Shown here piece by piece: positions 1,511 to 31,822 of a stretch of 39,641 nucleotides of DNA. How positions within the stretch are numbered: position 1 is the first letter of the stretch; every line of letters starts with the position of its first letter. The stretch covers positions 1 through 39,641 of the forward strand of contig JBCCHV010000061.1 of NCBI GenBank assembly GCA_039028635.1, given 5' to 3'. Source of the stretch: Acidobacteriota bacterium (lineage in GTDB: Bacteria > Acidobacteriota > Thermoanaerobaculia > Multivoradales > JBCCEF01). Position numbers and translations under genes: made by a program. The notes beneath the pieces are model-generated. The model saw only the letters and a list, made by a program, of their open reading frames with translations. It was not told where the DNA came from and did no database searches.

Positions 1511-1532
1511 CGAGGAAATGGCCGGCTCGCGG

Positions 1533-3994: not shown

Positions 3995-4045
3995 GGGTTC
4001 TTGCCCGCCCCACCACCCTTCCCGAATCGCATGCAGGGAGACGGC

Positions 4046-5446
4046 ATGTCGCTCGCTGGTCGCCGCCAGGCGCTCTGTTGGCTGCTGATTGCGTTCTCCG
4101 GAACCTTCGTCGGCTGTATCGGCGGCGGGAAAGGGGTGGAGCCGCCAACTTACGCCTGTGCCGACTGCAACGTCGTCTTGGTGTCCCTGGACACCCTGCG
4201 GGCGGATCGTCTCGGGACCTACGGCCACTCGCGGCCGACTTCGCCCAACATCGATGCCCTGGCGGCCCGCTCGACGGTCTTCGAGCGCGCCTACAGCGTG
4301 TCGTACCACACCGCCGACTCGCACATGTCGGTGTTCACTTCGACCTATCCTTCGGTCCATCTGGTACGCAACGCCGCCAAGGGCGGAGGGCGGGCCCTCG
4401 ATGAGGTGGTTCCGACCCTCGCCGAGCTGCTGCAAGGGGCCGGCTATTCGACCGCCGGTTTCCACGGTGGCGGCAATGTCTCGCCCCTCTACGGCTTCGA
4501 TCGCGGCTTCGAGCACTACGTCAACGGCGACATGGACGACGCCCTGGCCTGGCTGCGGCAGGCTCCCGCGGAGCCCTTCTTTCTCTTTTTCCACGCCTAT
4601 TACACCCACGATCCCTACACGCCCGAGACCTTGGCCTTCGGTCAGGACTACGAGGGCGACATCGTGAGCCGGCGAGACGAGCTGCTGGCGATGACCGAGA
4701 ACGGCAGCTTTCTCGAGCTCAGGGACACCTTCTGGGAGCAGGTGGATTCGTCCGATCCGCAGGATCTTGAGCACCTGTTGGCGCTCTACGACAGCGAGAT
4801 TCGCGAGATCGACGCGCGTTTCGGTGAGCTGTTGACGGCGATCGAGGCCTTGCCCGGCGAGACCCTGATCGTGCTGATGTCGGACCACGGGGAAGAGTTC
4901 TTCGAGCACGGTCGCTTCCTGCACGATCAGCTCTACGACGAGCTGCTCCACGTGCCCCTGGTGGTGCACCACCCGAGCGCACCGCCGCGACGGGTTTCGA
5001 CTCGCGTCAGCCTGATCGACTTGGCGCCGACGGTGCTCGAGATGGTGGGCGCGGAGCTGCCAGCAAGCTTTCAAGGAGAGTCCCTGGTGGCGGTGGCCGA
5101 GGGCCAGCGTGTGCCGGAGTTCGTCTTCAGCGAGAAGCTGCGTCGCCTGCCGGGGGATGCCGGTCCGCCGGGCCGCGGTCTGTCGGCCTACTCCCTGGTT
5201 CAGGACGAGGTCAAGCTGATCCTGCGTGGCGAGCCCGAGGTCTACGACCTCGAGAGCGATCCTGGGGAGCAGGAGAATTTGGGCCGAGAGAGCCGGGAGC
5301 TGCGCCGCCTCGTCGCCCTCGGCAAGCAGATCGCGCGCGACAACCAGGCCCAGCGCGAGGTCATGGGCATCGGCGGCGCCGGGGCCGAGGCCGCCCTCGA
5401 CGATGAGACCCGCGATCAGCTCAAGGCCCTCGGCTACCTGCAATAG
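4046..5446 (+). CDS. Sulfatase-fold lipoprotein with Thr nucleophile (AlkP superfamily)
   Basis: 466-aa exported lipoprotein. ATG 4046 is chosen over an upstream ATG (4031) and TTG (4001) because AGGGAG lies 5 nt before it and the signal peptide then has a normal length with lipobox FVGC (Cys24). The metal motif is SLDTLRADRLG (Asp49). The nucleophile region is SYHTADSHMSVFTS: Thr89 replaces Cys/Ser and even the Pro of the usual LPSH is Asp. MSDHGEEF (Asp280-His281) and GRFLHDQ follow. The C-terminus is LKALGYLQ. Only 5 nt separate its stop from the GT4-GT2 fusion at 5452, so the two are co-transcribed. That coupling is the best hint that this enzyme acts on a glycan or glycolipid. The substrate is unknown; a phospho-group transferase or hydrolase is inferred. 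Confidence 0.9.
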   Translation: MSLAGRRQALCWLLIAFSGTFVGCIGGGKGVEPPTYACADCNVVLVSLDTLRADRLGTYGHSRPTSPNIDALAARSTVFERAYSVSYHTADSHMSVFTSTYPSVHLVRNAAKGGGRALDEVVPTLAELLQGAGYSTAGFHGGGNVSPLYGFDRGFEHYVNGDMDDALAWLRQAPAEPFFLFFHAYYTHDPYTPETLAFGQDYEGDIVSRRDELLAMTENGSFLELRDTFWEQVDSSDPQDLEHLLALYDSEIREIDARFGELLTAIEALPGETLIVLMSDHGEEFFEHGRFLHDQLYDELLHVPLVVHHPSAPPRRVSTRVSLIDLAPTVLEMVGAELPASFQGESLVAVAEGQRVPEFVFSEKLRRLPGDAGPPGRGLSAYSLVQDEVKLILRGEPEVYDLESDPGEQENLGRESRELRRLVALGKQIARDNQAQREVMGIGGAGAEAALDDETRDQLKALGYLQ

Positions 5447-5451
5447 GCATC

Positions 5452-8184
5452 ATGACGCAAGACCCGGGCTCACCACCGAACGGCGAGGCTTCTCAGGAGC
5501 AGGGTCGCCCGGAGCAGGGTCGCCCGGACCAGGGGGGCCCGGAGCAGGGAGACGGAGTGACTCGCGACGAGCGGGTGCGAGACCTCGAGGAACAGCTCGC
5601 GGCGGCCCGGCGGGAAATCGAATTCCTCGGTGCTCGCATCGCGGCCGACCGGGCGCGGGGCGCCGAGCAGGAGCACGAGCTGGGTCAGCGCCTCGACGAG
5701 GTCGAAGGCGAGCTCGACGAGATCCACGCCTCCAAGATGTGGAAGCTGTGGATGCTCTATCTCTTCGGCATCGCCGTGCTGTTGGCGCCGCTGCGAGCTC
5801 TCGGGCGCGGCATCGAGGCCCTGCTGCGTCAGCCGGGACTCTTCGCGCGCCTCCGTCGAGCCTTGACCAGGCGCTTGCGCTGGCTGGTGCGAGGCCTGCG
5901 GGTCGTCTGGTGGCGCTTGCGCCGCTGGTTCCTCAACCTGCTGCTGGTTGTGCCCCACACGGCCGGCCGGATCTACCTGTCGCGCTATAGCCGGGAGCGC
6001 TTCGACGCGGCCCGCAGGCGGCGCGAGGAAGAACCCGAGAGCTTGGCCCTCGGTCCCGTCGAGGAGCCGGTCGCGGCACCGCGGGAGGGGCGTCGGCCGC
6101 GGGTCTTGATGGTGTCGCCGTACCCGATCTATCCGGTGAACCATGGCGGGGCGGTGCGCCTCTTCCACCTCATCCGCGAGATCAGCCGTTCGGTGGATCT
6201 CTACCTGCTGGTCTTCAGCCGCCAGAAGGACAACCGCGAGCAGCGCGAGGCCCTCGAGCCTTACTGCGCCGGCCTCTACTTCTATGCCTGGCAGCCGATT
6301 CTGGCGCCGGACTTCTGGGGCCTGCGGGCCCCCGGAGTGCAGCTCTTTCGGTCGCCGGCGGTAACCCGTCGGCTCCAGCAGCTGATTTCGGAAAAGAACA
6401 TCGACATCCTGCAGCTCGAGTACACGGAGCTCGGACAGTATGCGCCGCGGGTGGCGGTGCCGCGCAAGATCCTCACCGAGATCGACATCACCTTCCGGTC
6501 GCGCTATCGTCGGCGGCGAGCCGGCTTTCACCGCCGCTACCGCCACGACCGCGTCTTCGGAACCTCGCGCGGTGATGGTCATCGCCTCTTTCGCTACGAG
6601 GTCGAGGTCTGCGAGACCGTCGACCAGGTGCACGTCATGTCGGAGGACGACGGGCGCTATCTGGCCTCCTTCCTGAGCGATCGCGGCGAGCGCATTCGAG
6701 TCGTTCCCAACGCCGTCGACACCCAGCGGCTGCAGCGTCCTTCCGCCGCGCCGCGGCCGGACCAGGTGCTGTTCCTGGGCAACTTCCAGCACCTCCCGAA
6801 TGTCGATGCGGTCGATTTCCTGCTCTCCGAGATCTGGCCCCAGGTGCGACAACGGCTGCCTGGAGCGACCCTCAATATCGTCGGAGTGGGGCCGCCGGAC
6901 CACGTCCTCGGCCACCATGGGCGCGACGGTGTCGAGGTCCTCGGCGCGGTTCCCGACGTCTTGCCTTACTTCGTTTCACACCGCGTCTTCGTCGCCCCGA
7001 TTCGTGCCGGTTCCGGAACCCGGCTGAAGATTCTCGAGGCCTTTTCGGCGGGGCTGCCGGTGGTCTCGACAACGGTGGGGGCGGAGGGCATTCGATGTCG
7101 GGACGGCCAGCACCTGCTGCTGGCCGAGAGCGCCGAAGCGATCGCCGACGCCATCGTTCGCCTGCTCGAGGACGAAGCCCTGGGACAGCGTCTGGCGACG
7201 TCGGCGCGTGAGCTCGTCGAGGCGGAGTACGACTGGCGGGCGAGCGCCGAGCGGTTGGTCTCCGCTTACTGGGAGCTGATGCCGGAGCCGGACCGGGTGC
7301 CGCGCCAGAGGTCGACATCGGGGCCGGCGATCTCGGTGATCTTGCCGACTCGCAATGGCGGTCCGCTGCTCGAAGAGACCCTCGCCGCGATCTTCGAGCA
7401 GCGCATCGATCGCGAGTTCGAGGTCCTGTGCGTCGACTCCGGCTCGCGCCCCGAGGATGTCGAGCTCATGGGCCGTTTCCCGCTACGCTTCATCGCGATC
7501 GATCCCGCGGACTTCAACCACGGATTGACGCGCGATTTCGGCGCCTCGAAGGCCCGCGGAGAAGTTTTGGTCTTCCTCAACCAGGACGCCACTCCGGTTC
7601 ATCGCCACTGGCTCGAGCGCATCACCGAGCCGCTGTTCTCCGGCGACGACCACATCGCCGGAGTCCAGGGCGGCATCCAGGAGCGAGAACACGGCATGCG
7701 GCGCTTCTACTGGGACTCCTGTGGTGAGCGCTTCTACTTCACCCGGGAGTCGGATCGCTGGATCGAGAGCTTCGACGGCATCGGGTTCTCGACCGTCAAC
7801 GCAGCGCTGCGGCGCGATGTCTGGCAGCGCCATCCCTTCGGCTTCGCGCCCATCATGGAGGACAAAAAGTGGCAGCGGGAGGTGGTCGAGGCCGGCTACC
7901 GGCTGGAAGTTCGACCGGAGGCTCTCGCTGCCCACACCCACGACTACGACCTGCGCACCCTGATGCGGCGTTGCCTCAGCGAGGGCTACGGCTGGCGGCT
8001 CCTCGAGGAGCCCTACGGCGTGCTCGACATGCTGCGTGACATGTTTCAGCCGCACATGGCGGCAGACTGGGTGAGCGGCCTGTTCCAGGGCCGAATTCGC
8101 ACTCCGGCGGAGTTCTTTTTCCCGTGGATTCGTCCGCTGATGCTGCACTACGGCAACCGCTGGAGCCGAGGCGTCAAGCTCTGA
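5452..8184 (+). CDS. Membrane-anchored two-domain glycosyltransferase (GT4-GT2 fusion)
   Basis: 910-aa protein with two glycosyltransferase modules. Residues 1-35 are a Gly/Gln/Pro-rich low-complexity tail coded by a 15-bp tandem repeat. Residues 36-95 are heptad-like and charged (coiled coil), and 98-114 form a hydrophobic segment followed by a very Arg-rich amphipathic stretch to about 190. From about 216 (VSPYPIYPVNHGGAVR) to about 615 is a GT-B fold GT4 domain with the family's donor-site region IRAGSGTRLKILEAFSAG near 517-534. From about 625 (VILPTRNGG) to about 890 is a GT-A fold GT2 domain with DFNHGLTRDFGA near 687 and FLNQDA near 708, features typical of rhamnosyltransferase-like GT2 enzymes. 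The polypeptide probably adds two sugars in sequence at the inner membrane face. It follows the lipoprotein gene by 5 nt and its end overlaps the convergent DoxX-like gene by 11 nt. Confidence 0.92.
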   Translation: MTQDPGSPPNGEASQEQGRPEQGRPDQGGPEQGDGVTRDERVRDLEEQLAAARREIEFLGARIAADRARGAEQEHELGQRLDEVEGELDEIHASKMWKLWMLYLFGIAVLLAPLRALGRGIEALLRQPGLFARLRRALTRRLRWLVRGLRVVWWRLRRWFLNLLLVVPHTAGRIYLSRYSRERFDAARRRREEEPESLALGPVEEPVAAPREGRRPRVLMVSPYPIYPVNHGGAVRLFHLIREISRSVDLYLLVFSRQKDNREQREALEPYCAGLYFYAWQPILAPDFWGLRAPGVQLFRSPAVTRRLQQLISEKNIDILQLEYTELGQYAPRVAVPRKILTEIDITFRSRYRRRRAGFHRRYRHDRVFGTSRGDGHRLFRYEVEVCETVDQVHVMSEDDGRYLASFLSDRGERIRVVPNAVDTQRLQRPSAAPRPDQVLFLGNFQHLPNVDAVDFLLSEIWPQVRQRLPGATLNIVGVGPPDHVLGHHGRDGVEVLGAVPDVLPYFVSHRVFVAPIRAGSGTRLKILEAFSAGLPVVSTTVGAEGIRCRDGQHLLLAESAEAIADAIVRLLEDEALGQRLATSARELVEAEYDWRASAERLVSAYWELMPEPDRVPRQRSTSGPAISVILPTRNGGPLLEETLAAIFEQRIDREFEVLCVDSGSRPEDVELMGRFPLRFIAIDPADFNHGLTRDFGASKARGEVLVFLNQDATPVHRHWLERITEPLFSGDDHIAGVQGGIQEREHGMRRFYWDSCGERFYFTRESDRWIESFDGIGFSTVNAALRRDVWQRHPFGFAPIMEDKKWQREVVEAGYRLEVRPEALAAHTHDYDLRTLMRRCLSEGYGWRLLEEPYGVLDMLRDMFQPHMAADWVSGLFQGRIRTPAEFFFPWIRPLMLHYGNRWSRGVKL
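5496..5550 (+). repeat. 15-bp in-frame tandem repeat
   Basis: Unit GGAGCAGGGTCGCCC, with two exact copies (5496-5510, 5511-5525), a third with three changes (5526-5540) and a 10-bp partial fourth (5541-5550). It codes for Glu-Gln-Gly-Arg-Pro-like pentapeptides in the N-terminal tail of the glycosyltransferase. Because 15 is a multiple of 3, copy-number change would keep the frame. Confidence 0.85.
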
Positions 8185-9838: not shown

Positions 9839-11164
9839 TCAGAGATTCGAAGGCCCTGTCCGAAGCTGGCCCGAGTCGTCCGGATGGGCGGAAGAACGCG
9901 AGCCTAGCACAGGGATCTCGAGGAGCTCCGCCAGCCGGCGAGCGCGTGCCGACCAGCCCTCGTTGGCGACTCGCTGGCGGCGGAGGAGGCGGGCCTCGGG
10001 ACCGTCGTCTTCGCGGCGGTGGCGCAGCCTGGCGACGAGCTCGTCGGGGGTGTCGTAGAGGGCGACTTCGGGCCCTTCCCAGGCGGCCAGGCCGGGCAGC
10101 CGGCGGGCGATCACCGGCAGGCCGACGGCGAGCATTTCGTAGAGCTTCACCGAGTCGATGGCGCGGGTCAGCGGTTGGTCGGTGTAGGGCACCAGCCCGA
10201 CATCGAGGTCGGCGAGGAACGCCGCGACCCGCGAGAACGGAATCTCGCCGTAGAGGGTGACTCGAGGGTGCGCCCCGAGGGCCCTCACCGCGGGATCCTC
10301 GACCCGGCCGGCGAGGTGCAGCTCCCAGGGCAGCTGGTCGAGGCAGCGGCGCAGCGCCGTTGTGTCGATACGGCCGTCGAGGGCGCCGACGAAGCCGGCC
10401 CGTGGCGGTTGGTTGCCGGGGCTCGGCGCGAGGGGCAGGCGCTCGAGGTCGACGGCGTTGGGCAGCAGCTCGACGCGGCGGGCGTGGGGCAGTGAGCGCT
10501 GCGCCAGGTCGGGAGAGGTGGCGGTGACCAGGTCGGCGGCGGCGAGCAGCTCCGTCTCGACCTCGCCGACCTGCGCCGGAGTCCCCGGGAAGGCGGTGTG
10601 GAGGTCGATACGGTCGTAGACCAGCGGCACCGTCAGCCGCTGCGCCAGGGCGGTCGCGAAGGGCGACCAGAAGGGAAGCTGGGCGAACACCGCCTCTGGG
10701 CGGCGCCGGAGGTGGTCGGCGACCTCCGCCACCAAGGGCTCGATCGCTGCTTGCGGGAACGGCTGGCGGAATGGGTCCGGCAGCCCGGGCAGCCGTCGGC
10801 TCACCACCTGCAGGGCCGGCCGGTCGAGGCGCCGCCGCCAGGGCGGGTTGAGCCGCAGGCGGTCGAATGCTTCGAGATAGAGGACCGCCGGTCCGAGCTC
10901 GGCGAGGGCGACGGCGAGCTGCTGCGGGCGCTGGAAGCGAAAGCTCCACGGTAGCGCCGGCAGGTAGAGGACCACCGGTCCCTGAGACTCCGAGAGGTCC
11001 GGGAGAGGCGGTCGGGTCCAGCGGCCGATGTCTTCCCGACGCAGCGGACTCCGCCCCTGGCGCAGGCGTCGGCCGAGGGCGCGCAGCACGCGCTCCCCGC
11101 CGGCGGCGAGCTCTCGCAGGCTGTCGGTGCGGGTGGTGGGAAGGTCGAAAAAGGGATCGCTCAT
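9839..11164 (-). CDS. GT4-type glycosyltransferase (TuaH-like)
   Basis: 441 aa from ATG 11164. The open frame continues upstream, but that part overlaps the divergent epimerase gene and has no glycosyltransferase character. Residues 68-84 (LPALPWSFRFQRPQQLA) match the start of TuaH-like GT4 enzymes. The region LPNAVDLERL joins the two Rossmann-like halves, and DSVKLYEMLAVGLPVIA near 345-360 is the donor-binding part of a GT-B fold. No signal or membrane helix is visible. It is the first gene of the minus-strand operon with GT2 and the DoxX-like protein. It is divergent from the epimerase, 78 bp apart. A role in surface polysaccharide or glycolipid assembly is inferred from domain and neighbours. 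Confidence 0.9.
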   Translation of the reverse strand: MSDPFFDLPTTRTDSLRELAAGGERVLRALGRRLRQGRSPLRREDIGRWTRPPLPDLSESQGPVVLYLPALPWSFRFQRPQQLAVALAELGPAVLYLEAFDRLRLNPPWRRRLDRPALQVVSRRLPGLPDPFRQPFPQAAIEPLVAEVADHLRRRPEAVFAQLPFWSPFATALAQRLTVPLVYDRIDLHTAFPGTPAQVGEVETELLAAADLVTATSPDLAQRSLPHARRVELLPNAVDLERLPLAPSPGNQPPRAGFVGALDGRIDTTALRRCLDQLPWELHLAGRVEDPAVRALGAHPRVTLYGEIPFSRVAAFLADLDVGLVPYTDQPLTRAIDSVKLYEMLAVGLPVIARRLPGLAAWEGPEVALYDTPDELVARLRHRREDDGPEARLLRRQRVANEGWSARARRLAELLEIPVLGSRSSAHPDDSGQLRTGPSNL

Positions 11165-11242
11165 GGCGGCGGTGGCGGTGGTAACCTCGCGGGCGTCGGA
11201 CCCTTCCAGCATACGGCCTCTCGGATCACAGGAGAACTCGAA
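11165..11242. promoter_or_regulatory. Divergent promoter region (inferred)
   Basis: 78 bp between the divergent GT4 and epimerase genes, so both promoters should lie here. The only clear element is GGAGA at 11231-11235, the ribosome-binding site of the epimerase. No confident -35/-10 pair was found by eye. Confidence 0.4.
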
Positions 11243-12184
11243 GTGACCAAAACCGATCAGCCCCTCCACGTCGCCGTCACCGGCGGTGCCGGATTCATCG
11301 GCTCTCACCTGGCCGATGCGTTTCTCGATCGCGGTGATCGGGTGACGGTGATCGACGACCTCTCCGGAGGCAAGCGCGAGAACGTATCGCCGCGGGCCGA
11401 GCTGCTCGAGCTCGACATCCGCAGCCGCGAGGCGGCCGAGGCGGTCGCCGACCTCGAGGTGCAGGTGCTCGTTCACCACGCCGCCCAGATGGATGTCGGG
11501 CGCTCCGTCAAGGACCCCTGCTTCGATGCCGACGTCAACATCGTCGGCAGCCTGAATCTGATCGAAGCCGGCCGCCGGGCGGCCCTGCAGCAGGTGCTCT
11601 TCGCTTCCACTGGCGGCGCCATGTACGGCGAGCAGGAGGTCTACCCGGCGCCGGAGGATCATCCGACGCGGCCGGTGTCTCCCTACGGGGTCAGCAAGCT
11701 GGCGCTCGAGCGCTACCTCTACTTCTACCACCAGGAGTACTCCCTCGACGCCACTTGCTTGCGCTATGCCAACGTCTACGGCGAGCGCCAGAATCCCCAT
11801 GGCGAAGCCGGCGTGGTGGCGATCTTCCTCAACCGCCTGCTCGCCGGCGAGACGCCGCGCATCAACGGCGACGGCGGCCAGACCCGCGACTACATTCACG
11901 TCTCCGACGTGGTGCGGGCCAATCTCTCGGCGCTCGGTCGACCGGGCTTTCACATCTACAACATCGGCACCGGCCGCGAGACCTCGGTGCTCGGGCTCTA
12001 CGACGGCCTGCGGCGAGCCGCCGAGAGCGAGATTCGGGCCGAGCATGGACCGCCGCGACCGGGGGAGCAGCGGCGCTCTTCGATCGACGGCTCGGTCGCC
12101 CGACGCGAGCTCGCTTTGCCAGATCCCCTCGACCTCGAGGCCGGTCTGGGGCGCACCGCGGGTTGGTTCCGGGACCGGACCTGA
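11243..12184 (+). CDS. NAD-dependent sugar epimerase/dehydratase (GalE-like, extended SDR)
   Basis: 313 aa, GTG start at 11243 with GGAGA 7 nt upstream. It is an extended short-chain dehydrogenase acting on nucleotide sugars. TGGAGFIGSHL at 13-23 binds NAD, HHAAQMDV near 78-85 is the core strand, Ser122-Thr123 (FASTGGAMYGE) and Tyr148/Lys152 (SPYGVSK) form the catalytic set, and RYANVYGERQ and DYIHVSDV are substrate-site motifs. Overall it is closest to UDP-glucose/UDP-N-acetylglucosamine 4-epimerases, but the epimerised centre cannot be fixed from sequence. It probably supplies a donor sugar to the three nearby glycosyltransferase genes. The downstream lipoprotein gene starts 11 nt after its stop, so the two are likely co-transcribed. 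Confidence 0.93.
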   Translation: MTKTDQPLHVAVTGGAGFIGSHLADAFLDRGDRVTVIDDLSGGKRENVSPRAELLELDIRSREAAEAVADLEVQVLVHHAAQMDVGRSVKDPCFDADVNIVGSLNLIEAGRRAALQQVLFASTGGAMYGEQEVYPAPEDHPTRPVSPYGVSKLALERYLYFYHQEYSLDATCLRYANVYGERQNPHGEAGVVAIFLNRLLAGETPRINGDGGQTRDYIHVSDVVRANLSALGRPGFHIYNIGTGRETSVLGLYDGLRRAAESEIRAEHGPPRPGEQRRSSIDGSVARRELALPDPLDLEAGLGRTAGWFRDRT

Positions 12185-12195
12185 GGCCAGCCCCG

Positions 12196-14229
12196 ATGCG
12201 GTGGGCGGGGACCGGCTGCTGGCTGCTGCTGACGGCCTGTGTCTTCGGCGCTTGCGGCCCTGGAGAGCAGCCGCCGGACCGCCTGCTGCTGGCCACCGCG
12301 GGGCCCCAGCCGGTCGAGTGGGTGAGCCTGGCCGGCAGCGAGCGGCGGGCGGTGACCGCGACCGACGGTGTCGCCTGGCGCGGCGAGGTGATCCTGCAGC
12401 CGGGCGACGCCCTCGACTTCAGCCTGGCCCTCGTCCCCGGAGCGGCGAGCGGTGTTTCGGCCGAAGCCGTCGTCGAAACGGCCTCCGGGCGCGAGCTGGC
12501 GCGGTGGCCGCTGTCGACGGCCGGGAGCTGGCAGGAGCAGCGGCTCGATCTGCCGCTGACCGGCCGTCATGAGCTGGTCCTCCGCTCGGTAGGCGCCGGC
12601 ACCGTCGCCTGGGCCGAGCTCAGCCTGCTGCGACGGCCCTCGCCCGCGGTTGGCGGCGAGCGCCCCAACCTGATCCTGATCTCCCTCGATACGGTGCGCG
12701 CCGATCATCTGTCGCTCTACGGCTATCACCGGCCCACCAGCCCCTCTCTGGAGGCTCTGGCGGCCTCTTCCTGGGTCTTCGAGCAGTCCTTTTCCACTTC
12801 GACCTGGACTCTGCCCAGCCACGGCTCGATGTTCACCGGACTGCTGCCGGACCAGCACGGTCTGCAGCGGGTCGCCGATCGCCTGGCCCCGAATGCGGAA
12901 ACGGCGGCCGAGCGCCTGGCCGCCGACGGCTACCGCACGGCGGCGATCACCGACGGAGGCTTTCTGGGGTCGCGCTGGGGCTTCGCCCAGGGCTTCGAGC
13001 GCTACGACAGTACTTCCGGCCAGGCCTGGGAGCCGAAGGACGCGGCGGTGATCTTCCGCCGGGCCGCCGAGTGGGTGGCGGCCAACCGCCATCGTCCATT
13101 CTTCCTCTTCGTCCACACCTACGAAGCCCATCAGCCCTATTTCAATCGCGAGGGCTTCGCCGATCCCTTCCTCGATCCCGACTACCGCGGCCCCTTCGAG
13201 CAGTCGGCCAACGTCTTTCGCAAGGATGTCGATCTGCCGGCAGAGGTCGAGCGCATCACCGCCCTCTACGACGGCGGCCTGCGTCGCATGGACCACTACC
13301 TCGGCCGCTTCCTGGACGACTTGGAAGCGCGAGGCGTGCTCGACTCGACAGCGCTGATCGTCACCTCCGACCATGGCGAGGGCCTGAACGAGCACGGCGA
13401 CTTCGAGCATGCCCACGGCGAGGTCTTCGACGAGCATGTGCGGGTGCCCCTGCTGGTGCGGCCGGCGGGCGGCGTGAGCGCAGCCCGAGTGGCGACGCCG
13501 GTGACCTCCCTCGACGTCCTGCCGACACTGCTCGATTTCGCCGGCCTCGAAGACCCTGGCCTGCTCGGCGGGTCGCTGCGCCGTCTGGCGGAGGCCCCTT
13601 CGCAGCCATCGCGAGCGGTGCTCAGCCACGGCATCAACTCGCTGCAGGAGCTCTTCGAGCGCCGCTACCGCCTGGGTGAAGGGGACTCCCTGGTGATCTT
13701 CGACCGGCCGCGCCAGGCGCTCGCGGGATTTCAGCCGAGCAGCGATCCGGAGATGCGCCGGCCGCAGCCGCCGAGCCCTGACGACCCCGCCGCCCGGCGC
13801 CTCGGCCGCCTGTTGGCTTGGTTGGGAGAGGGCGACTACTGGACCTGTTTCGAGGCCGGGCGCCGACTCACCTGGGTCGACGGCGCTGCGCTGGCGGTGG
13901 CCGGCCACTGGAGCGGCGAAGGGTGGCAGTCGGGGCCGGCTCCGGCGGAGCTCTCCGCCGCTCCCGGACAGGAGCTCTGCGTCAGCTTCGAGATCCTACC
14001 CGGCCAAGGGCCGCGGGCGGTCGAGGTCGACGGTCGGCGGCTCCGCCTGCGTCGAGCGCCAGCCGATACCTCGGCCGCTGCGAGCCCATTGGTGTCGGAT
14101 CAGCCACTCCTGCCTTCCTCTGGTGACGCGGTGCTGGTCTGGCCGACGGCGGCGGCGTTCGAAGCCGAGCGCACCACCCTCGATGAGGCCGCCACCGAGG
14201 AGCTCCGCGCCCTCGGTTATCTCGGTTGA
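12196..14229 (+). CDS. Large sulfatase-fold lipoprotein with Thr nucleophile and extra domains
   Basis: 677 aa from ATG 12196 (GAGG 9 nt upstream). The upstream part of the frame overlaps the epimerase and is discarded. The lipobox is FGAC (Cys20). Residues 25-150 look like a beta-sandwich that is not part of the catalytic fold. The catalytic domain starts near 157: ISLDTVRADHL (Asp165), STWTLPSHGSMFTG (Thr205 as nucleophile, no Cys/Ser), TSDHGEGLNEHG (Asp392-His393). From about 560 a further beta-rich region follows. The C-terminus is again LRALGYLG. It is about 200 residues longer than the other three paralogs here, by the N-terminal domain and the C-terminal extension. It is coupled with the epimerase, within the glycan region. 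Substrate unknown; action on a surface glycan is inferred. Confidence 0.9.
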   Translation: MRWAGTGCWLLLTACVFGACGPGEQPPDRLLLATAGPQPVEWVSLAGSERRAVTATDGVAWRGEVILQPGDALDFSLALVPGAASGVSAEAVVETASGRELARWPLSTAGSWQEQRLDLPLTGRHELVLRSVGAGTVAWAELSLLRRPSPAVGGERPNLILISLDTVRADHLSLYGYHRPTSPSLEALAASSWVFEQSFSTSTWTLPSHGSMFTGLLPDQHGLQRVADRLAPNAETAAERLAADGYRTAAITDGGFLGSRWGFAQGFERYDSTSGQAWEPKDAAVIFRRAAEWVAANRHRPFFLFVHTYEAHQPYFNREGFADPFLDPDYRGPFEQSANVFRKDVDLPAEVERITALYDGGLRRMDHYLGRFLDDLEARGVLDSTALIVTSDHGEGLNEHGDFEHAHGEVFDEHVRVPLLVRPAGGVSAARVATPVTSLDVLPTLLDFAGLEDPGLLGGSLRRLAEAPSQPSRAVLSHGINSLQELFERRYRLGEGDSLVIFDRPRQALAGFQPSSDPEMRRPQPPSPDDPAARRLGRLLAWLGEGDYWTCFEAGRRLTWVDGAALAVAGHWSGEGWQSGPAPAELSAAPGQELCVSFEILPGQGPRAVEVDGRRLRLRRAPADTSAAASPLVSDQPLLPSSGDAVLVWPTAAAFEAERTTLDEAATEELRALGYLG

Positions 14230-14321: not shown

Positions 14322-15512
14322 ATGAGCCTGCGTTTTGCGATCTTGGCGACGGTCGTCGTTTCGGGACTCGTCCAGCTCGGCTGTGCCGGAGCCGAGGCGG
14401 AGTCTTCGCGCCACCTGATGGTGAGCCGCGGATCCCTGACGCCGCGGGTCCTGATGACCGGCGAGCTGGTGGCCGGTCGTGCCCACAGCCTGGCGGTGCC
14501 GCGCACCCCGACCTGGGAGGTGCAGATTCGCTGGATGGCCGAGGACGGTACCGAGGTGGTGGCCGGCGACAGGGTGGTCGAGCTCGACAACACCCCCTTT
14601 CTGACGGAGCTCGAAGAGAAGAGGCTGACCCTGTCCCAACACAAGGAAGAGCTGGCCCGCAAGCGCGCCGAGGGCAAGCTACAGATCGCCGATGGCGAGT
14701 TCGCCGTCGCCCAGGCGGAAGCCGGCCTCGAAAAGGCGCGCATCGCCGCCGCCGTGCCCGAGGCGCTGATGGCGCGGCGCGAGTTCGAAGAGCTCCAGCT
14801 AGCGCTGCGGCGGGCCGAGATCGATCTCGACAAGGCGCGCGAGAGTCTTGCCGCGACCCGCCGGCGAAGCGAGTCGGAGCTCGCCATTCAGCGCATCCAG
14901 GTGGAGCGCTTCGGCCGCCAGATCGACCTCGCCGAGAACGCCGTCTCGTCTCTGCAGTTGACGGCGCCGGTGGACGGTATTCTGGTGGTGGGCAATCATC
15001 CCTGGGAAGGTCGCAAACTGCAGGTCGGAGACTCGGTTTGGGTCGGCATGACGGTGGCCCGGATCCCGGACCTGACGACCATGCGAGTGGCGGCCGATCT
15101 CCCCGATGTCGACGATGGCCGGGTGGCCGTCGGCATGAAAGTTCGCTGCACCCTCGATGCGTACCCGCAAGAATCCTTCGCCGGCCGCGTCGAGCAGGTG
15201 GCGATGGTCGCCAAGGAAGCCAGCAGTCGCAGCCTGCGACGGTTCTTCGACGTCGAAGTCGGCCTCGACGAGGGCGACTCGGACCGGATGCGGCCGGGGA
15301 TGTCGGTGAAAGTGGAAGTGTTCGGTGAGGAGCGGGCCGATGCCTTGCTGGCCCCCCGGGCCGCCCTCGATCTCGACGCCGAGAGCCCGCGGGCTCGGAC
15401 TCCCGGGGGCTGGCGCGAAGTCGACCTCGGATCCTGCGATGCGCATCATTGCGAGGTCACCGGAGGTTTGAGCGAGGGAACCCGCCTGGCCGCGGTTGGA
15501 GAGGCCTGGTGA
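14322..15512 (+). CDS. HlyD/MacA-type periplasmic adaptor, lipoprotein
   Basis: 396 aa. The signal peptide has lipobox QLGC (Cys21). Residues 30-100 form a barrel/lipoyl half (RGSLTPRVLMTGEL, then DGTEVVAGDRVVELD). A long coiled coil follows (about 100-210, many Glu/Lys/Arg heptads). The second lipoyl half (LTAPVDGILVV) and a beta-barrel domain (DRMRPGMSVKVEVF) end the protein. This is the domain order of membrane fusion proteins that link an inner-membrane ABC permease to an outer-membrane channel. It is the first of three adaptors in a row and the only one with a lipobox. The next gene starts at GTG 15509, sharing GTGA with this stop. A 92-bp gap separates it from the preceding lipoprotein gene. 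Confidence 0.88.
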   Translation: MSLRFAILATVVVSGLVQLGCAGAEAESSRHLMVSRGSLTPRVLMTGELVAGRAHSLAVPRTPTWEVQIRWMAEDGTEVVAGDRVVELDNTPFLTELEEKRLTLSQHKEELARKRAEGKLQIADGEFAVAQAEAGLEKARIAAAVPEALMARREFEELQLALRRAEIDLDKARESLAATRRRSESELAIQRIQVERFGRQIDLAENAVSSLQLTAPVDGILVVGNHPWEGRKLQVGDSVWVGMTVARIPDLTTMRVAADLPDVDDGRVAVGMKVRCTLDAYPQESFAGRVEQVAMVAKEASSRSLRRFFDVEVGLDEGDSDRMRPGMSVKVEVFGEERADALLAPRAALDLDAESPRARTPGGWREVDLGSCDAHHCEVTGGLSEGTRLAAVGEAW

Positions 15513-16708
15513 AGCGTCTGGCCCTCGCCGCGGTGATCGTCGGTCTGCTGGTGGCGGTGGTGAGCTGGGCCGGCGGCGGCAGCGAGGAGCAAGCCTGGAG
15601 CGAGGTGGTGCGTGGTGATCTGGTGATCGGTATCGAGGTCAGCGGCGAGCTCCGGGCCGCCTATTCGGACCTCCTCGGACCGCCACCGATGCCGGGCGTG
15701 GCGTCCTACAAAATCGCCTCCCTGATGCCCGAAGGGCGGGCGGTGAAGGCAGGAATGCCGGTGCTGCGCTTCGATACCTCGGACCTGGAGCGGCGCCTGC
15801 TCGAAAAAATGGCGGAGAAGGAATCTGCCGACAAAGAGCTCGAGAAGCTCGGCACGACCCTGGCCTCGGAGCGGCGCGCCAGCGAGCTGCGCCTGGCCGA
15901 GGCACGAGCACGGCTGCGTCGCGAAGATCTCAAGATCGACGTTCCCGAGGATTTGGTGCAGGCCAACCAGCTCGCCACCACCCGCCTCGATCGCGAGCTG
16001 GCGGCGGACGAGGTGGCCCACCTCGAACAGCGTCTCGAGCTGATGGGGCGTCAGTCCCGGGCCCAGTTGGCCTCCTGGCGCGAGCGCAGCGCGCGGGCCG
16101 CCGGCCGGGTCGAGGAGATTCGGCAGCAGATCGAGCGCATGACGGTGCGGGCGCCGCGGGACGGCACCTTGCTGCATCGCGCCGACCACCGAGGCGACAA
16201 GAAACGGGTGGGAGATTCGGCGTGGCAGCGCGACAAGGTGGTCGAGATTCCGGATCTCGAACGCATGATGGCGGAGGGGCAGGTGGAGGAGGCGGACGCC
16301 GGCCTTCTCGCCCTCGGTCAGGCGGTCACCCTGCGGCTCGACGCCCACCCCGACGAGGTCTACTCCGGAAAGGTCGTTTCCCTCGGCGATTCCGTCCGGC
16401 GGCGCTCGCGCTTCAATCCCCTCAAGGTGGTGGCGGTGGAGATCGAGCTCACGAACACCGACGTCGAACGGATGCGTCCCGGCATGCGTTTCCAGGGCGC
16501 CATCGAGATCGAGCGTGTCCCCGACATCCTGCTCGCCGAGGTGGCGGCCGTCGGCGAAGGCCTGGACGGACCGGTGGCGCGGCGCAAGAGCCTGTGGGGA
16601 GAGGAAACGGTGCGCGTCGAAACCGGCCGCAGCAACCGCCAGCAGGTCGAGGTGCTGGCGGGCCTCTCGGCCGGTGACCGCCTGCGGACCGGGGGAGGCC
16701 GACCGTGA
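15509..16708 (+). CDS. HlyD/MacA-type periplasmic adaptor
   Basis: 399 aa. The start is GTG 15509, which overlaps the previous stop by 4 bp and has GGAG 7 nt upstream. An uncleaved N-terminal helix (about 3-22) anchors it to the inner membrane. Then come a barrel/lipoyl half (MPEGRAVKAGMPVLRFD), a coiled coil (about 100-210), the second lipoyl half (TVRAPRDGTLLH) and a barrel domain (VERMRPGMRFQGAIEIE). It differs from the first adaptor in having a membrane anchor rather than a lipid. The next gene again overlaps by GTGA. It is part of the four-gene exporter-like unit ending at 19199. The cargo is unknown. Confidence 0.88.
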   Translation: MKRLALAAVIVGLLVAVVSWAGGGSEEQAWSEVVRGDLVIGIEVSGELRAAYSDLLGPPPMPGVASYKIASLMPEGRAVKAGMPVLRFDTSDLERRLLEKMAEKESADKELEKLGTTLASERRASELRLAEARARLRREDLKIDVPEDLVQANQLATTRLDRELAADEVAHLEQRLELMGRQSRAQLASWRERSARAAGRVEEIRQQIERMTVRAPRDGTLLHRADHRGDKKRVGDSAWQRDKVVEIPDLERMMAEGQVEEADAGLLALGQAVTLRLDAHPDEVYSGKVVSLGDSVRRRSRFNPLKVVAVEIELTNTDVERMRPGMRFQGAIEIERVPDILLAEVAAVGEGLDGPVARRKSLWGEETVRVETGRSNRQQVEVLAGLSAGDRLRTGGGRP

Positions 16709-17967
16709 AGTCCTGGCTCGCCCTCGCCGGCGTGGTGGTGCTCGGAGCGGTGCTGTTCTTGACCTTCGGCGCCGCCGCCGGCCCGGAGATCCCCACCCAG
16801 CGTCTAGAACGTCGCGACTTCGTCCGCCGGGTGCCCGCCGAGGGCTATCTGCGGGCCACCCAGTCGAACGCCCTCAAGGTGCCGAGCACCATTCAAGGCC
16901 CGGTGCGTATCGCCTGGGTGACCGAGGACGGTTCGCGGGTGGCGGCGGGCGAGCCGGTGGTGCGCTTCGATCCGAGCGATTTCGAAGAGCGCATGACCCA
17001 GGCGCGGGACGATCTCGATCGTCTCGGCTTCGAGCGCCGCTCCGAGGACTCGACCTCCCAGGCGGAGCTCGCCAACCTCGATCGCGATGCCGAGGTCGCC
17101 CGCCTCGAGCTCGATTCGGCGGAGCGCTTTCAGAAGCGCGACGAGCAGCTCTTCTCCCGCACCGAAATCATCGAGTCCGAGATCGACGGTGATCTCGCCC
17201 GCCACCGGCAGCGCCACGCCGAATCGTCGAAGGCGGACCGCGCCAAGCTGTCGCGTACCCAGCTCGACCTCCTCGGTATCGAGCAGCGCCAAGCCAATCT
17301 CCGCCTCGCCACCGCCGAAAGCAGCCTCGAGGATCTTGAGATCGTGTCGCCCCAGGACGGTATCGTGGTGCTCAAGACCGACTGGCGCGGCAATCCGCCG
17401 CGCACCGGCGACACCACCTGGGCGGGGCAGCCGCTGGCCGAGATCCCTAACCTCGCGGAGATGGAGGCGGAGGTCTGGGTGCTCGAGGCGGATGCCGGAG
17501 GGCTGGCGGCGGGGCAGGCCGCGTCGTTGGTGGTCGAGGCTCATCCGGAAGTGCGCCACGGCGCGGTGGTCAAGAGCGTCGACTCGGTCGCCAAGCCGCG
17601 GCGCCGGGGATCGCCGGTGCAGTACTTTTCCGTCGTACTGACCCTCGAGGAGACCGATCCGGCGGTGATGAAGCCGGGGCAGCGGGTGCGGGCCGAGCTC
17701 CTGGTCGAGGAGCGGCCGGATGCTCTGGTGGTGCCGCGGCAGGCGATTTTCGAGCGTGACGGTGAGTTCGTGGTCTTCGCTCGCCAGGGAGCTGGATTCG
17801 AGCCTCGATCGGTGGTGATGGCGACCACCTTTCTCGGCCAGAGCGTGGTCGAAGGCCTCGACGAAGGAACCGAGATCGCGCTCGTCGATCCCGCCGCGTC
17901 GAGCTCTTCGGCGTCGTCCCAGGAGGCCGCGCCGCCGAGCGCCGCCGAAGGAGTCCTGGCGCCTTGA
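16705..17967 (+). CDS. HlyD/MacA-type periplasmic adaptor
   Basis: 420 aa, GTG start at 16705, sharing GTGA with the preceding stop. An N-terminal anchor helix (4-24) is followed by a lipoyl/barrel half (TEDGSRVAAGEPVVRFD), a coiled coil (about 90-205), the second lipoyl half (IVSPQDGIVVLKTDW) and a barrel domain (AVMKPGQRVRAELLVEE). A C-terminal macro-barrel-like segment (VVPRQAIFERDGEFVVFARQ) and a Ser/Ala-rich tail end the protein. The C-terminal part, with a FERDG hairpin, is more complete than in the two preceding adaptors, so this is the most canonical MacA-like member. The next gene overlaps by TTGA. The three adaptors are clearly diverged from one another. Confidence 0.88.
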   Translation: MKSWLALAGVVVLGAVLFLTFGAAAGPEIPTQRLERRDFVRRVPAEGYLRATQSNALKVPSTIQGPVRIAWVTEDGSRVAAGEPVVRFDPSDFEERMTQARDDLDRLGFERRSEDSTSQAELANLDRDAEVARLELDSAERFQKRDEQLFSRTEIIESEIDGDLARHRQRHAESSKADRAKLSRTQLDLLGIEQRQANLRLATAESSLEDLEIVSPQDGIVVLKTDWRGNPPRTGDTTWAGQPLAEIPNLAEMEAEVWVLEADAGGLAAGQAASLVVEAHPEVRHGAVVKSVDSVAKPRRRGSPVQYFSVVLTLEETDPAVMKPGQRVRAELLVEERPDALVVPRQAIFERDGEFVVFARQGAGFEPRSVVMATTFLGQSVVEGLDEGTEIALVDPAASSSSASSQEAAPPSAAEGVLAP

Positions 17968-19199
17968 ACCTGCGCGAGGCCTTGTCCAGCGCCGCCGAGA
18001 ATCTGGCCGGCCACAAGCTGCGCTCGGCGCTCACCATGTTGGGCATGATCTTTGGCGTCGGTGCCGTCATCGCGATGCTCTCGATCGGTGCCGGGGCCGA
18101 GCAGCAGGCCCTCGAGATGATCGAAAGCCTGGGCCTCAACAATGTCTTGGTGCGGGACGCCGCGCCCGAGGGCGAAGAGCTCCAAGAGGCGCGGGAAAAA
18201 TCCCCCGGCGTGTCGCTGCGCGACGTCGCCGCCATCGAGGACGCGGTCCCCGGGGTCGCCGAGGCGTCGCCGCGGGTGCGCATCGAGCCTTATCGCGTGC
18301 TCGCCGCCGGCGGCAAGAGCGAGGCTCTGGTCTTCGGGGTCTCCCATCGCCACGCTCGCCTCGCCGGCTTGAGGGTCTCCGAGGGACGATTTTTCGATTC
18401 CCGCGACGAGGCCCACCACGGCCAGGTTTGCGTCATCGGTGCCGAGGTGCGGCGCGAGCTCTTCGGCTTCGGACCGGCCATCGGCCAAGACCTCAAGGTC
18501 AACGATGTCTGGTTCGAGGTGGTCGGTATCCTGAGCACCGGCGGCGCCACCGCCGACTCCTTCCAGGGAGTTCAGCTCGGTGAGCCGGCGCGCGAGATCT
18601 ACGTGCCGGTGTCGACGGCCCTGCGCAAGTTCGATCAAGGGCCCCTCGACTCACCGTTGAGCGAGATCGTGGTGCGTCTCGAAAACGGTGCGCCGGCCCG
18701 CCGCACCGGCGACCTCGTCGCCGGCCTGCTCGATCGGCTGCACGCCGGTGCCGGTGACTTCGAGCTGGTGGTGCCGGAGGCTCTGCTGGCCCAGAGCCGG
18801 CGCACCCAGCGCCTGTTCAATCTGGTGATGGGCTGCATCGCCGGCATCTCTCTGCTGGTGGGCGGCATCGGCATCATGAACATCATGCTGGCGACGGTGC
18901 TCGAGCGCACCCGCGAAATCGGCGTGCGGCGCGCCGTCGGCGCCCGCGGTCGCGACATCCAGTTCCAGTTCCTCACCGAGGCCTTCGCGATCAGCCTGCT
19001 CGGCGGAATAGCGGGGGTGGTGGTGGGGGTCGCTATTGCTCGCGGCGTCGCCGCCTGGGCGGATTGGGAAACGGTGGTCACGCTGGGGTCGGTGTTGCTT
19101 TCGACCGGCGTGGCGATGGCCGTCGGCCTGGCCTCGGGCTACTACCCGGCGGTGCGCGCCGCCCGCCTCGACCCGGTCGACGCCCTGCGCTACGAGTAG
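17964..19199 (+). CDS. MacB/FtsX-type ABC transporter permease
   Basis: 411 aa, TTG start at 17964 within the TTGA overlap of the preceding stop. The topology is that of MacB permeases: one N-terminal helix (about 22-44, LTMLGMIFGVGAVIAM), a large periplasmic domain, then three helices (about 285-312, 332-358, 370-393). The MacB/FtsX signature REIGVRRAVGARGRDI lies just after helix 2 and the end is RLDPVDALRYE, also typical. There is no ATP-binding domain in this protein and none in the window, although MacB normally carries or is paired with one. With the three adaptors it forms an export or envelope-remodelling unit of mechanotransmission type. The substrate is unknown; the ATPase must be encoded elsewhere. 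Confidence 0.9.
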   Translation: MNLREALSSAAENLAGHKLRSALTMLGMIFGVGAVIAMLSIGAGAEQQALEMIESLGLNNVLVRDAAPEGEELQEAREKSPGVSLRDVAAIEDAVPGVAEASPRVRIEPYRVLAAGGKSEALVFGVSHRHARLAGLRVSEGRFFDSRDEAHHGQVCVIGAEVRRELFGFGPAIGQDLKVNDVWFEVVGILSTGGATADSFQGVQLGEPAREIYVPVSTALRKFDQGPLDSPLSEIVVRLENGAPARRTGDLVAGLLDRLHAGAGDFELVVPEALLAQSRRTQRLFNLVMGCIAGISLLVGGIGIMNIMLATVLERTREIGVRRAVGARGRDIQFQFLTEAFAISLLGGIAGVVVGVAIARGVAAWADWETVVTLGSVLLSTGVAMAVGLASGYYPAVRAARLDPVDALRYE

Positions 19200-29010: not shown

Positions 29011-29841
29011 TCACTTCTCCCAGATGGCGGCGAAGCGAGAGCTTCGACCGGCACCGAAGGCGCTGATCTCGGCGGGCCTGTACCCGGCGTCGGTCTGATC
29101 GTCGAACTGGGACTGATACTTGGCGGCGGTCATCCCGTGGCGCGCGATCCAACGCCCGCCGCCGCGCTTCTCCCAGATCGCCGCATACAGGTGTTTTCCC
29201 TTGACCGAGTAGCCGCTGACCAGCGTCGGCCGGTAGCCGGCCCGGGTCCACTTGTTGAACTCGGCTTGGTAGCGCGACGACGTCAGGTTGTGACGCGCCA
29301 CGTATGCCGGTCCGGACCGCTTCTCCCAAATGGCGGCAAAGCGCGCTCGCGAGCCGTCCGAGTAACCGCTGACATGGGCCAGCCGGTAGCCGGCGCGGGT
29401 CCACTTGTTGAATTCGGCCTGGTAGCGCGACGACGTCAGGTTGTGACGGGCCACATAGGCCGGGCCGGATCGTTTCTCCCAGATGGCGGCGAACTTGATT
29501 CGCGTTCCGATGCAGTAGCCACTGACGTGGGTCAGCCGGTAGCCGGCTCGGCGCCGGCGATCGAACTCTGCCTGGTAGGCACTGGAGCTCAGGCCGTGAC
29601 GGGCGACCCATCGCGGACCGGACTTCTTCTCCCACACCGCGGCGTAGCGCTCCTTGCCGTTCTCCGAGTATCCGGTGACGTCGGTCAGTCGATAGCCGGC
29701 GCGGGTCCACTTGTTGAACTCGGACTGATAGCGGGAGGGCGAGAGCCCGTGGCGGGCGACCCACTGTGCCGAGGCTGGAGTGCTCGCCGCAAACAAGCCG
29801 GCGGCGAAGGAAGCAAGGACTGCGATTTTCAGTGCGTTCAT
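29011..29841 (-). CDS. Secreted protein of five 51-residue repeats (BTRD1-like)
   Basis: 276 aa. ATG 29841 is chosen because GAGGA lies about 8 nt upstream; ATG 29871 has no such site. The signal peptide is 1-26, cut after TPASAQ or before it. The mature part is five tandem repeats with a 51-residue period, starting at residues 27, 78, 129, 180 and 231. Each repeat runs W/Y-V-A-R-H-G/N-L, then YQAEF, a basic stretch, AGYR, VSGY and AAIWEK. This matches the bacterial tandem repeat domain 1 pattern, which also occurs as a non-catalytic part of fungal polyglycine hydrolases. The last repeat is the most diverged. Function is unknown; binding to a polymer or surface is inferred. It lies 75 bp upstream, in transcription order, of the tyrosinase operon. 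Confidence 0.85.
   Translation of the reverse strand: MNALKIAVLASFAAGLFAASTPASAQWVARHGLSPSRYQSEFNKWTRAGYRLTDVTGYSENGKERYAAVWEKKSGPRWVARHGLSSSAYQAEFDRRRRAGYRLTHVSGYCIGTRIKFAAIWEKRSGPAYVARHNLTSSRYQAEFNKWTRAGYRLAHVSGYSDGSRARFAAIWEKRSGPAYVARHNLTSSRYQAEFNKWTRAGYRPTLVSGYSVKGKHLYAAIWEKRGGGRWIARHGMTAAKYQSQFDDQTDAGYRPAEISAFGAGRSSRFAAIWEK
29014..29763 (-). repeat. Five tandem 153-bp coding repeats
   Basis: Repeat boundaries on the coding strand are 29763-29611, 29610-29458, 29457-29305, 29304-29152 and 29151-29014. Repeats 3 and 4 are nearly identical over long runs at the nucleotide level, while repeats 1, 2 and 5 differ more. That points to recent duplication or gene conversion in the centre of the array. 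Confidence 0.85.
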
Positions 29842-30207
29842 CGAGATCGTCCTCGTTGAGTTGTCGTTCATGGGGGAGACGAGTGAGCGCTTCTTTTGCT
29901 TCAGGACTCCGGTGAATGCTGGCGATAGGGAGGCGCCCCGCCATTCGCCTCGACCCACTCCGCCGACGACCTCGACCCTCGGCCTGATCGCGTCGCTCGC
30001 GGGCTGGCCGCCCGTCGTCTTCCGGGCCTTCGACGGTCGCCGTTGACGCTCCTTCTGCTGTCTCCCTGCTGAGGGTGACGCCCCCCGAGCTCCTCGATCT
30101 CGAGTCCTTCTGAGCCACTTTCGGCGCCGTTTCCGCATTACCGGCGTCGGTCCATGACTTATCTCGGCTCTCCTCCTCGGAGGGCCCTTCGGTGAAGGAG
30201 GATTTCC
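29842..30207. other. Divergent intergenic region
   Basis: 366 bp between the minus-strand repeat-protein gene and the plus-strand secreted pair. It should hold promoters for both. The clear element is AAGGAGG at 30195-30201, six nt before ATG 30208. GC-rich self-complementary runs occur around 30165-30200 (CTCC/GGAG and GGGCCC) and might fold around the ribosome-binding site. No confident -35/-10 pair or RNA gene was identified. Confidence 0.45.
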
Positions 30208-31792: not shown

Positions 31793-31822
31793 CCGGCGGG
31801 TGTGAGGGGCCTCATCCGCCGG
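31793..31822. terminator. Hairpin between convergent genes
   Basis: CCGGCGG at 31793-31799 pairs with CCGCCGG at 31816-31822, and TGAGG (31803-31807) continues the stem with CTCA (31811-31814) across a small bulge. It lies between the stop of the secreted pair and the stop of the kinase and partly inside the kinase's last codons, so it could end both transcripts. It has no T tract, so this is a moderate call. Confidence 0.4.

Follow-up and report, generated by a model that had tools for sequence, protein, structure and literature searches.

The DNA considered here, called the window, is an entire contig (C61, JBCCHV010000061.1) of 39,641 bases from an Acidobacteriota genome of 6.28 Mb that is assembled in 117 contigs and is 95% complete. 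Positions 14322-19199 of its + strand carry three periplasmic adaptor genes (A1, A2 and A3) and a gene for a MacB-type permease, which follow one another consecutively with an overlap of 4 bp at each junction. The four genes and their GTGA, GTGA and TTGA overlaps, as described in an earlier note on this DNA, were read directly at that place:

14322..15512, + strand: A1, first periplasmic adaptor (HlyD/MacA type, long hairpin); ATG start; Pfam HlyD_D23 2.9e-11, HlyD_3 2e-8
15509..15512, + strand: A1/A2 overlap, 4 bp, GTGA; direct reading
15509..16708, + strand: A2, second periplasmic adaptor, with hydrophobic N-terminal anchor; GTG start; Pfam HlyD_D23 2.6e-11
16705..16708, + strand: A2/A3 overlap, 4 bp, GTGA; direct reading
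16705..17967, + strand: A3, third periplasmic adaptor; GTG start; Pfam HlyD_D23 1.8e-12
17964..17967, + strand: A3/permease overlap, 4 bp, TTGA; direct reading
17964..19199, + strand: MacB-type (type VII ABC) permease without nucleotide-binding domain; TTG start; MacB_PCD 4.8e-39, FtsX 1.1e-18

Both HlyD_D23 and HlyD_3 exceed their Pfam cut-offs in A1, A2 and A3 alike, and the three adaptors of the window genome are 28% identical to one another. Residues 3-409 of the permease match MacB chains of the PDB (best 4.5e-50), and its MacB_PCD plus FtsX fold is that of a MacAB-TolC-like type VII ATP-binding cassette (ABC) exporter. Both the permease and the adaptors fall within known families, those of the type VII ABC and MacA folds. 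MacAB-TolC-like exporters have one adaptor, forming a homo-hexamer, and a cognate MacB-type ATPase that is fused or in the same operon; here there are three adaptor classes, and C61 carries no such ATPase. Several narrower assignments were rejected against NCBIfam cut-offs, namely true MacAB (equivalogs PRK10535 and PRK11578; permease 204.6 of 966 bits, adaptors at most 35.8 of 342 bits), ADOP (TIGR03434; the 411-amino-acid permease scores 140.1 of 622.3 bits, covers one half of the 803-position model and is not duplicated) and LolCDE (44.5 of 362.45 bits against the lolCE equivalog cut-off), while a TriABC-type hetero-adaptor resistance-nodulation-division (RND) pump is ruled out by the MacB-type transporter.

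None of the 72 ABC_tran and 16 OEP matches of the window genome, the only genome in which the TolC-type family search was run, falls on C61. The absence of an ATPase and an outer-membrane channel is therefore true of the 39.6-kb contig, as the earlier note had it, but not of the genome. Its description of one lipoprotein and two membrane-anchored adaptors likewise needs qualification: the lipobox of the window A1, VQLGC, fails a simple lipobox pattern that is passed by 35 of 55 A1, 3 of 54 A2 and 26 of 61 A3 relatives (N-termini roughly placed). The description is therefore probable, rather than certain, for the window copy, whose A1 is a probable lipoprotein with an atypical lipobox.

Permease orthologues with 59-81% identity are present in 25 of 58 other genomes, the next class of matches reaching at most 42%, and at 1e-100 the permease finds matches in 26 of the 72 genomes of the order, window genome included. 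The A3 query has matches at 1e-45 in 75 of 396 genomes of a phylum sample, from which 39 loci outside the order were taken, mostly top-ranked ones. A named scan adds the unit in Acidobacteriota, Myxococcota (among them Paraliomyxa and Enhygromyxa, myxobacterial names that we take to belong to this phylum) and Gammaproteobacteria (Alteromonas, Alkalimonas and Glaciecola). Since loci were recruited via A3 or the permease, the presence of those two genes reflects selection, and that of A1 and A2 does not. The same four genes in the order A1-A2-A3-MacB were nonetheless found in 90 of 107 sequence-distinct loci, the remaining 17 lying at contig ends, so that the conservation in related genomes that the earlier note had left to be checked is borne out. 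Overlaps of 4 bp are common, not universal, at the three junctions (51, 71 and 23 of the 90 loci, respectively). Two of the loci at contig ends fit the pattern poorly: the sole visible adaptor of L193 is classed as A2 yet adjoins the permease, and the A3 of L358 is broken across two frames. By its sequence and gene order the four-gene set is an old module, far beyond chance. A decaying or chance assembly of paralogues with no joint function is hardly credible; a consensus scan, which does not cover other promoter types, found no sigma-70-like promoter around the unit, as decay would lead one to expect, but order and sequence are strongly conserved, with a mean column identity of 72% for the permease over 22 loci.

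The three adaptors are distinct classes. For a quick tree we took 99 adaptors out of 33 loci, identified by gene position only, together with six other adaptors (five of the window genome and one of genome G003). Positions 1, 2 and 3 formed three clades of 33 rows each, with support values of 97, 97 and 98 in the Shimodaira-Hasegawa-like approximate likelihood ratio test (SH-aLRT); every clade holds Acidobacteriota, Myxococcota and Gammaproteobacteria, and the six other adaptors fall outside all three. A recent local duplication of the adaptors is rejected by these position-specific clades, each of which spans three phyla.

A1 and A2 are fused in frame in 8 of the 90 loci (L159, L173, L298, L316 and L329 in an Acidobacteriota group, L195 in genome G120, and L370 and L371 in Glaciecola), which by our own reading of the sequences reflects about three events. 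In the six linkers that were read (L298, L316, L329, L370, L371 and L308, the last being the record of L159), the A2 membrane anchor is gone, and so, by the alignment, is the C-terminal stretch of A1. An apparent A2-A3 fusion in L050 was not counted, as its linker contains the signal-like stretch of A3 itself. An AlphaFold model of one natural A1-A2 fusion contains two long hairpins, both complete, with a disordered linker between them, and its top Foldseek matches are EmrA chains; with a predicted local distance difference test (pLDDT) score of 72 and a predicted template modelling (pTM) score of 0.49, the model does not settle how the A1 and A2 halves may pack.

The hairpins are also matched in length. 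Measured by alignment as the residues between the lipoyl half-motifs, which replaced an earlier loose-pattern measure, the hairpin stretch comes to 127 residues in 71/71 A1, 83/85 A2 and 88/89 A3 proteins that are long enough to measure (of 90 each), including the A1 and A2 of the window at 127 amino acids each. Ordinary adaptors adjoining ATPases of the C clade described below have 96 residues in 20 of 23 rows, one gene being counted twice. The AlphaFold model of the window A3 is a complete adaptor (pLDDT 86.4, pTM 0.60) with hairpin helices at residues 91-141 and 152-209, and Foldseek places AcrA, MacA and EmrA among its nearest solved folds. The adaptor assignment thus draws on model and Foldseek for A3; for A1 and A2 it draws on Pfam, on the alignment and on the model of a relative's fusion protein.

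Conserved order, three clades, A1-A2 fusions and matched hairpin length together lead us to favour a mixed ring of six adaptors, and lend indirect, sequence-based support to the hetero-oligomeric ring suggested in the earlier note. The same proteins could instead be alternative adaptors, each forming its own homo-hexamer on the same permease with different partners or under different conditions, and their low mutual identity and differing anchors are what separate specialisations would show. We consider this unlikely, because all three adaptors are kept in every locus with room for them, the A1-A2 fusions force one-to-one use, and the hairpins are of equal length.

An ATPase gene immediately outside the unit in related genomes was named in the earlier note as a finding that would count against its proposal, and such genes exist. 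A MacB-type ATPase directly follows the permease in seven members of the order (G005, G013, G015, G020, G022, G036 and G048), precedes A1 in five other Acidobacteriota, and follows the permease in G120. We scored 63 Acidobacteriota genomes and found the ATPase linked to the unit in 13 of them; three genomes had been set aside before the count, G033 and G102 because their downstream side is out of view and G168 because its permease was not recovered. Among loci of the named scan with visible upstream DNA, it precedes A1 in 7/7 gammaproteobacterial and 7/8 myxobacterial-type loci, L327 being without it and one of the linked seven, L344, being titled only 'uncultured proteobacterium'. Two myxobacterial-type loci, L311 (also by Pfam) and L334, have TolC-type genes downstream on the same strand. 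Linked units are scattered over the permease tree, with seven changes of which three are forced by starred branches. The unit is therefore not ATPase-free in principle and separation from the ATPase is a feature of lineages. As linkage occurs in Acidobacteriota, Myxococcota and Gammaproteobacteria, the ancestral operon was likely ATPase-A1-A2-A3-MacB, from which the ATPase gene seems to have been split off in most Acidobacteriota.

These observations bear on the idea of a permease that needs no ATPase and acts as a passive or sensory device for mechanotransmission. ADOP permeases (TIGR03434) provide a precedent, as MacB-like permeases of Acidobacteriota that are described as lacking an ATPase neighbour, and no linked ATPase is seen for 50 of the 63 Acidobacteriota units scored, of which 38 can be read on both sides. 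The idea is nevertheless improbable, and we reject it on account of the linked ATPases in relatives, which lie at several places of the permease tree; moreover, the window permease is unduplicated, and its score of 140 falls short of the 622 required for ADOP.

A search of the window genome (G000) for orphan ATPases and TolC, as the earlier note had proposed, points to a candidate that is not beside the unit. It is the ATPase (C1:267030-267695) of a TolC-MFP-ATPase-MacB operon (MFP, membrane fusion protein) at 263.9-269.0 kb of contig C1, the best match in the genome (66%), with 65% identity to the dedicated ATPase type, to which the other G000 ATPases compared reach at most 53%. In a quick ATPase tree it belongs to a C clade (SH-aLRT 92) typified by operons of this kind. 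ATPases linked to the unit fall outside the C clade in Myxococcota, in Gammaproteobacteria and in 11 of the 13 Acidobacteriota that have one; that of G120 falls inside it, and that of G380 is not placeable. A dedicated ATPase gene lying elsewhere in the window genome and missed through an assembly gap is quite unlikely. Trees group free-standing ATPases of G033 and G044 with the dedicated type, and the number of contigs and the completeness of the genome leave room for a loss; against this, the best match in the genome is the C1 ATPase, and genus mate G001, at 99% completeness, has only a C1-type copy at 1e-70.

The distribution of C-clade ATPases is in line with supply from elsewhere in the genome. 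One is present apart from the unit in 41 of 50 genomes with an unlinked unit versus 2 of 13 with a linked one (Fisher 1.5e-5, uncorrected for kinship); the corresponding counts are 16/19 versus 0/7 in the order only (1.8e-4), 33/38 versus 2/13 where both flanks are visible (5.6e-6), and 12/13 versus 0/7 with both restrictions. In fourteen unit-bearing genomes the 12-20 kb read around a close ATPase contain no MacB permease, and in ten of these no adaptor either; in eight of the fourteen the unit is seen to be unlinked on both sides (G017, G024, G129, G132, G238, G331, G373 and G400). In 7/14 genomes this ATPase is housed in a conserved dppD-dppF-TolC-ATPase cluster. In G000 and G001 the cluster is dpp-TolC-MFP-ATPase-MacB, and G003 has TolC-MFP-ATPase-MacB. 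G129, assembled in one contig, has 11 MacB_PCD proteins, nine of which lie near a MacB- or LolD-type ATPase (eight within 1.5 kb, the ninth being a tandem partner); the remaining two belong to its three-adaptor units. The sole ATPase of this genome that matches at 1e-75 follows TolC and has no permease.

Some further features of such loci were seen. The cluster in L227, L228 and L231 comprises dppD, dppF, TolC, a MacB-type ATPase, ExbB and a TonB-like gene, with a methylmalonyl-CoA mutase gene nearby, on the opposite strand in 2/3, and L228 has a Yip1-domain frame between TolC and the ATPase. Two ordinary MFP-MacB sets of G017 (L378 and L379, on its contigs C2 and C25) have no ABC ATPase signature in 16 kb, so that unlinked ATPases are not confined to the three-adaptor system. 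From these sets, and from genomes that have the TolC-ATPase cluster without the unit (see below), the ATPase may be a shared module serving several permeases. For the window genome, the suggestion that the unit borrows a shared ATPase is accordingly supported as an inference, the C1 ATPase being the candidate.

We therefore consider it fairly probable that the unit encodes part of a MacAB-TolC-like exporter with a ring of three non-interchangeable adaptors and an ATPase supplied in trans, most likely from C1. A1, A2, A3 and the permease would form the periplasmic and membrane part of this type VII ABC exporter. MacB works as a homodimer and MacA as a hexamer (PMC5985334). Because the MacB dimer is two-fold, a ring of six around it has exactly three inequivalent positions, and the three adaptors would answer these one for one, most simply with two copies each of A1, A2 and A3. 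Long hairpins of one length in all three would reach a TolC-type channel, the missing ATPase would be provided by the close MacB-type ATPase of the C1 operon, whose TolC may also serve as exit, and ATP hydrolysis by this trans subunit would drive MacB-style mechanotransmission through the ring. We infer the ring stoichiometry, the identity of the ATPase and TolC, and transport itself.

A number of observations weigh against this reading. Equal coiled-coil length may come simply by descent. In the window genome the C1 ATPase comes with a MacB and an adaptor of its own, and at 95% completeness a dedicated ATPase may have gone unassembled, though G001 shows none at 1e-70. The upstream side runs off the contig in 12 of the 50 'unlinked' genomes, in which an upstream ATPase is therefore possible, and nine of the 50 were scored without a C-clade ATPase. 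C-clade status was assigned by hand, weaker hits (54-60% identity), which occur in both groups, were left off the tree, and support for the C-clade branch is an SH-aLRT of 92 in a quick tree. A test corrected for kinship leaves three independent pairs, none pointing the same way, a mean of 2.1 pointing the opposite way and 0.9 showing no difference (median p 0.5); with only three pairs on well-supported branches, complementarity is not statistically established, though its direction fits. Of the 14 genomes whose close ATPase has no permease around it, one (G103) carries a linked ATPase too, and in five others a flank of the unit is out of view. The permease-less dppDF-TolC-ATPase cluster also occurs in 3 of 50 unit-less genomes (G034, G030 and G167), a fourth possible case, G125, being cut by the contig start, which weakens a permease-less TolC-ATPase locus as a marker of the three-adaptor system. 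Finally, the second three-adaptor unit of G129 is directly followed by an ABC ATPase of non-MacB type. This second unit is diverged (L380:6274-7203, - strand, and L364; Acidobacteria bacterium Mor1, CP011806, about 162-176 kb), and the ATPase that follows it has 309 amino acids, with DppD (32%) as the closest of the references compared.

Compared with MacAB-TolC (PDB 5nik), the unit shares the permease fold and the adaptor domains, and in L311 and L334 the TolC-type gene beside it, but it has three adaptors rather than one, a hairpin stretch of 127 residues versus 96 in ordinary adaptors of the sampled genomes, and an ATPase that is a separate protein, mostly unlinked in Acidobacteriota. Separate ATPase subunits are also found in the MacB-type exporters YknWXYZ, Spr0693-0695, LitOPAI and VarACDEF, which differ in having one adaptor each and the ATPase in the same gene cluster (PMC5985334, PMC11559062, PMC5595328). 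TriABC-OpmH of Pseudomonas aeruginosa has distinct adaptors, both needed in one assembly, although there two adaptors serve an RND pump whereas here three go with a MacB-type permease; three-fold symmetry is discussed for such pumps (PMC4338810, PMC13328181), which by our own reasoning gives two inequivalent positions in a six-ring for the two TriABC adaptors. EmrAB-TolC has an adaptor hairpin of about equal length, and EmrA chains head the Foldseek matches of the fusion model, but its transporter belongs to the major facilitator superfamily and it has one adaptor. Unlike the ADOP orphan permeases, the window permease is not duplicated, falls far below the cut-off and comes with three adaptors. 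Two-adaptor RND pumps and separate-ATPase MacB pumps are thus already known, and no MacB system with three adaptors was found among the titles, abstract openings and passages of the open-licence PMC literature covered, a weak negative given that most subscription papers lie outside that search.

We put forward more tentatively, and at rather less than even confidence, that the unit represents a new ABC architecture, in which an A1-A2-A3 hetero-hexamer would resolve the mismatch between a two-fold transporter and a three-/six-fold channel by placing a separate protein at every inequivalent position, much as TriA/TriB would do for a three-fold RND pump, and a plug-in ATPase (perhaps with TolC) at another locus would be shared by several permeases. 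Studies of how six adaptors fit between a two-fold ABC transporter and a three-fold channel usually deal with identical ones, and a natural pump with a distinct protein for each inequivalent position would make the symmetry mismatch directly testable. The split ATPase suggests that MacB permease and motor can be separated and re-paired in nature, and a separable motor bears also on the orphan permeases of Acidobacteriota.

A substrate that would suit the MacB family in general is a lipid, a peptide or another amphiphile picked up on the periplasmic side. Nothing at the unit or among its neighbours points to any of these three in particular. Conserved neighbours were rejected as a substrate clue: in the 26 loci compared, no neighbour other than the ATPase is widely common around the unit, and only clusters of two to four loci share one. 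A sulfatase directly upstream of the unit is common to the window and the locus of its genus mate (L049). The window has four sulfatase-family genes upstream, at 92-1579 (-), 1533-2927 (-), 4001-5446 (+) and about 12370-14229 (+), with glycosyltransferase genes nearby at 5452-8184 and 9839-12046. Further downstream, 29011-30138 (-) encodes a protein of BTRD1 repeats resembling polyglycine hydrolase (1.2e-108), and 31812-34451 (-) a protein kinase domain followed by a long tetratricopeptide repeat array. In a Glaciecola locus (L373:8312-9325), one of few other loci scanned downstream, a gene of the metallo-beta-lactamase superfamily follows the permease.

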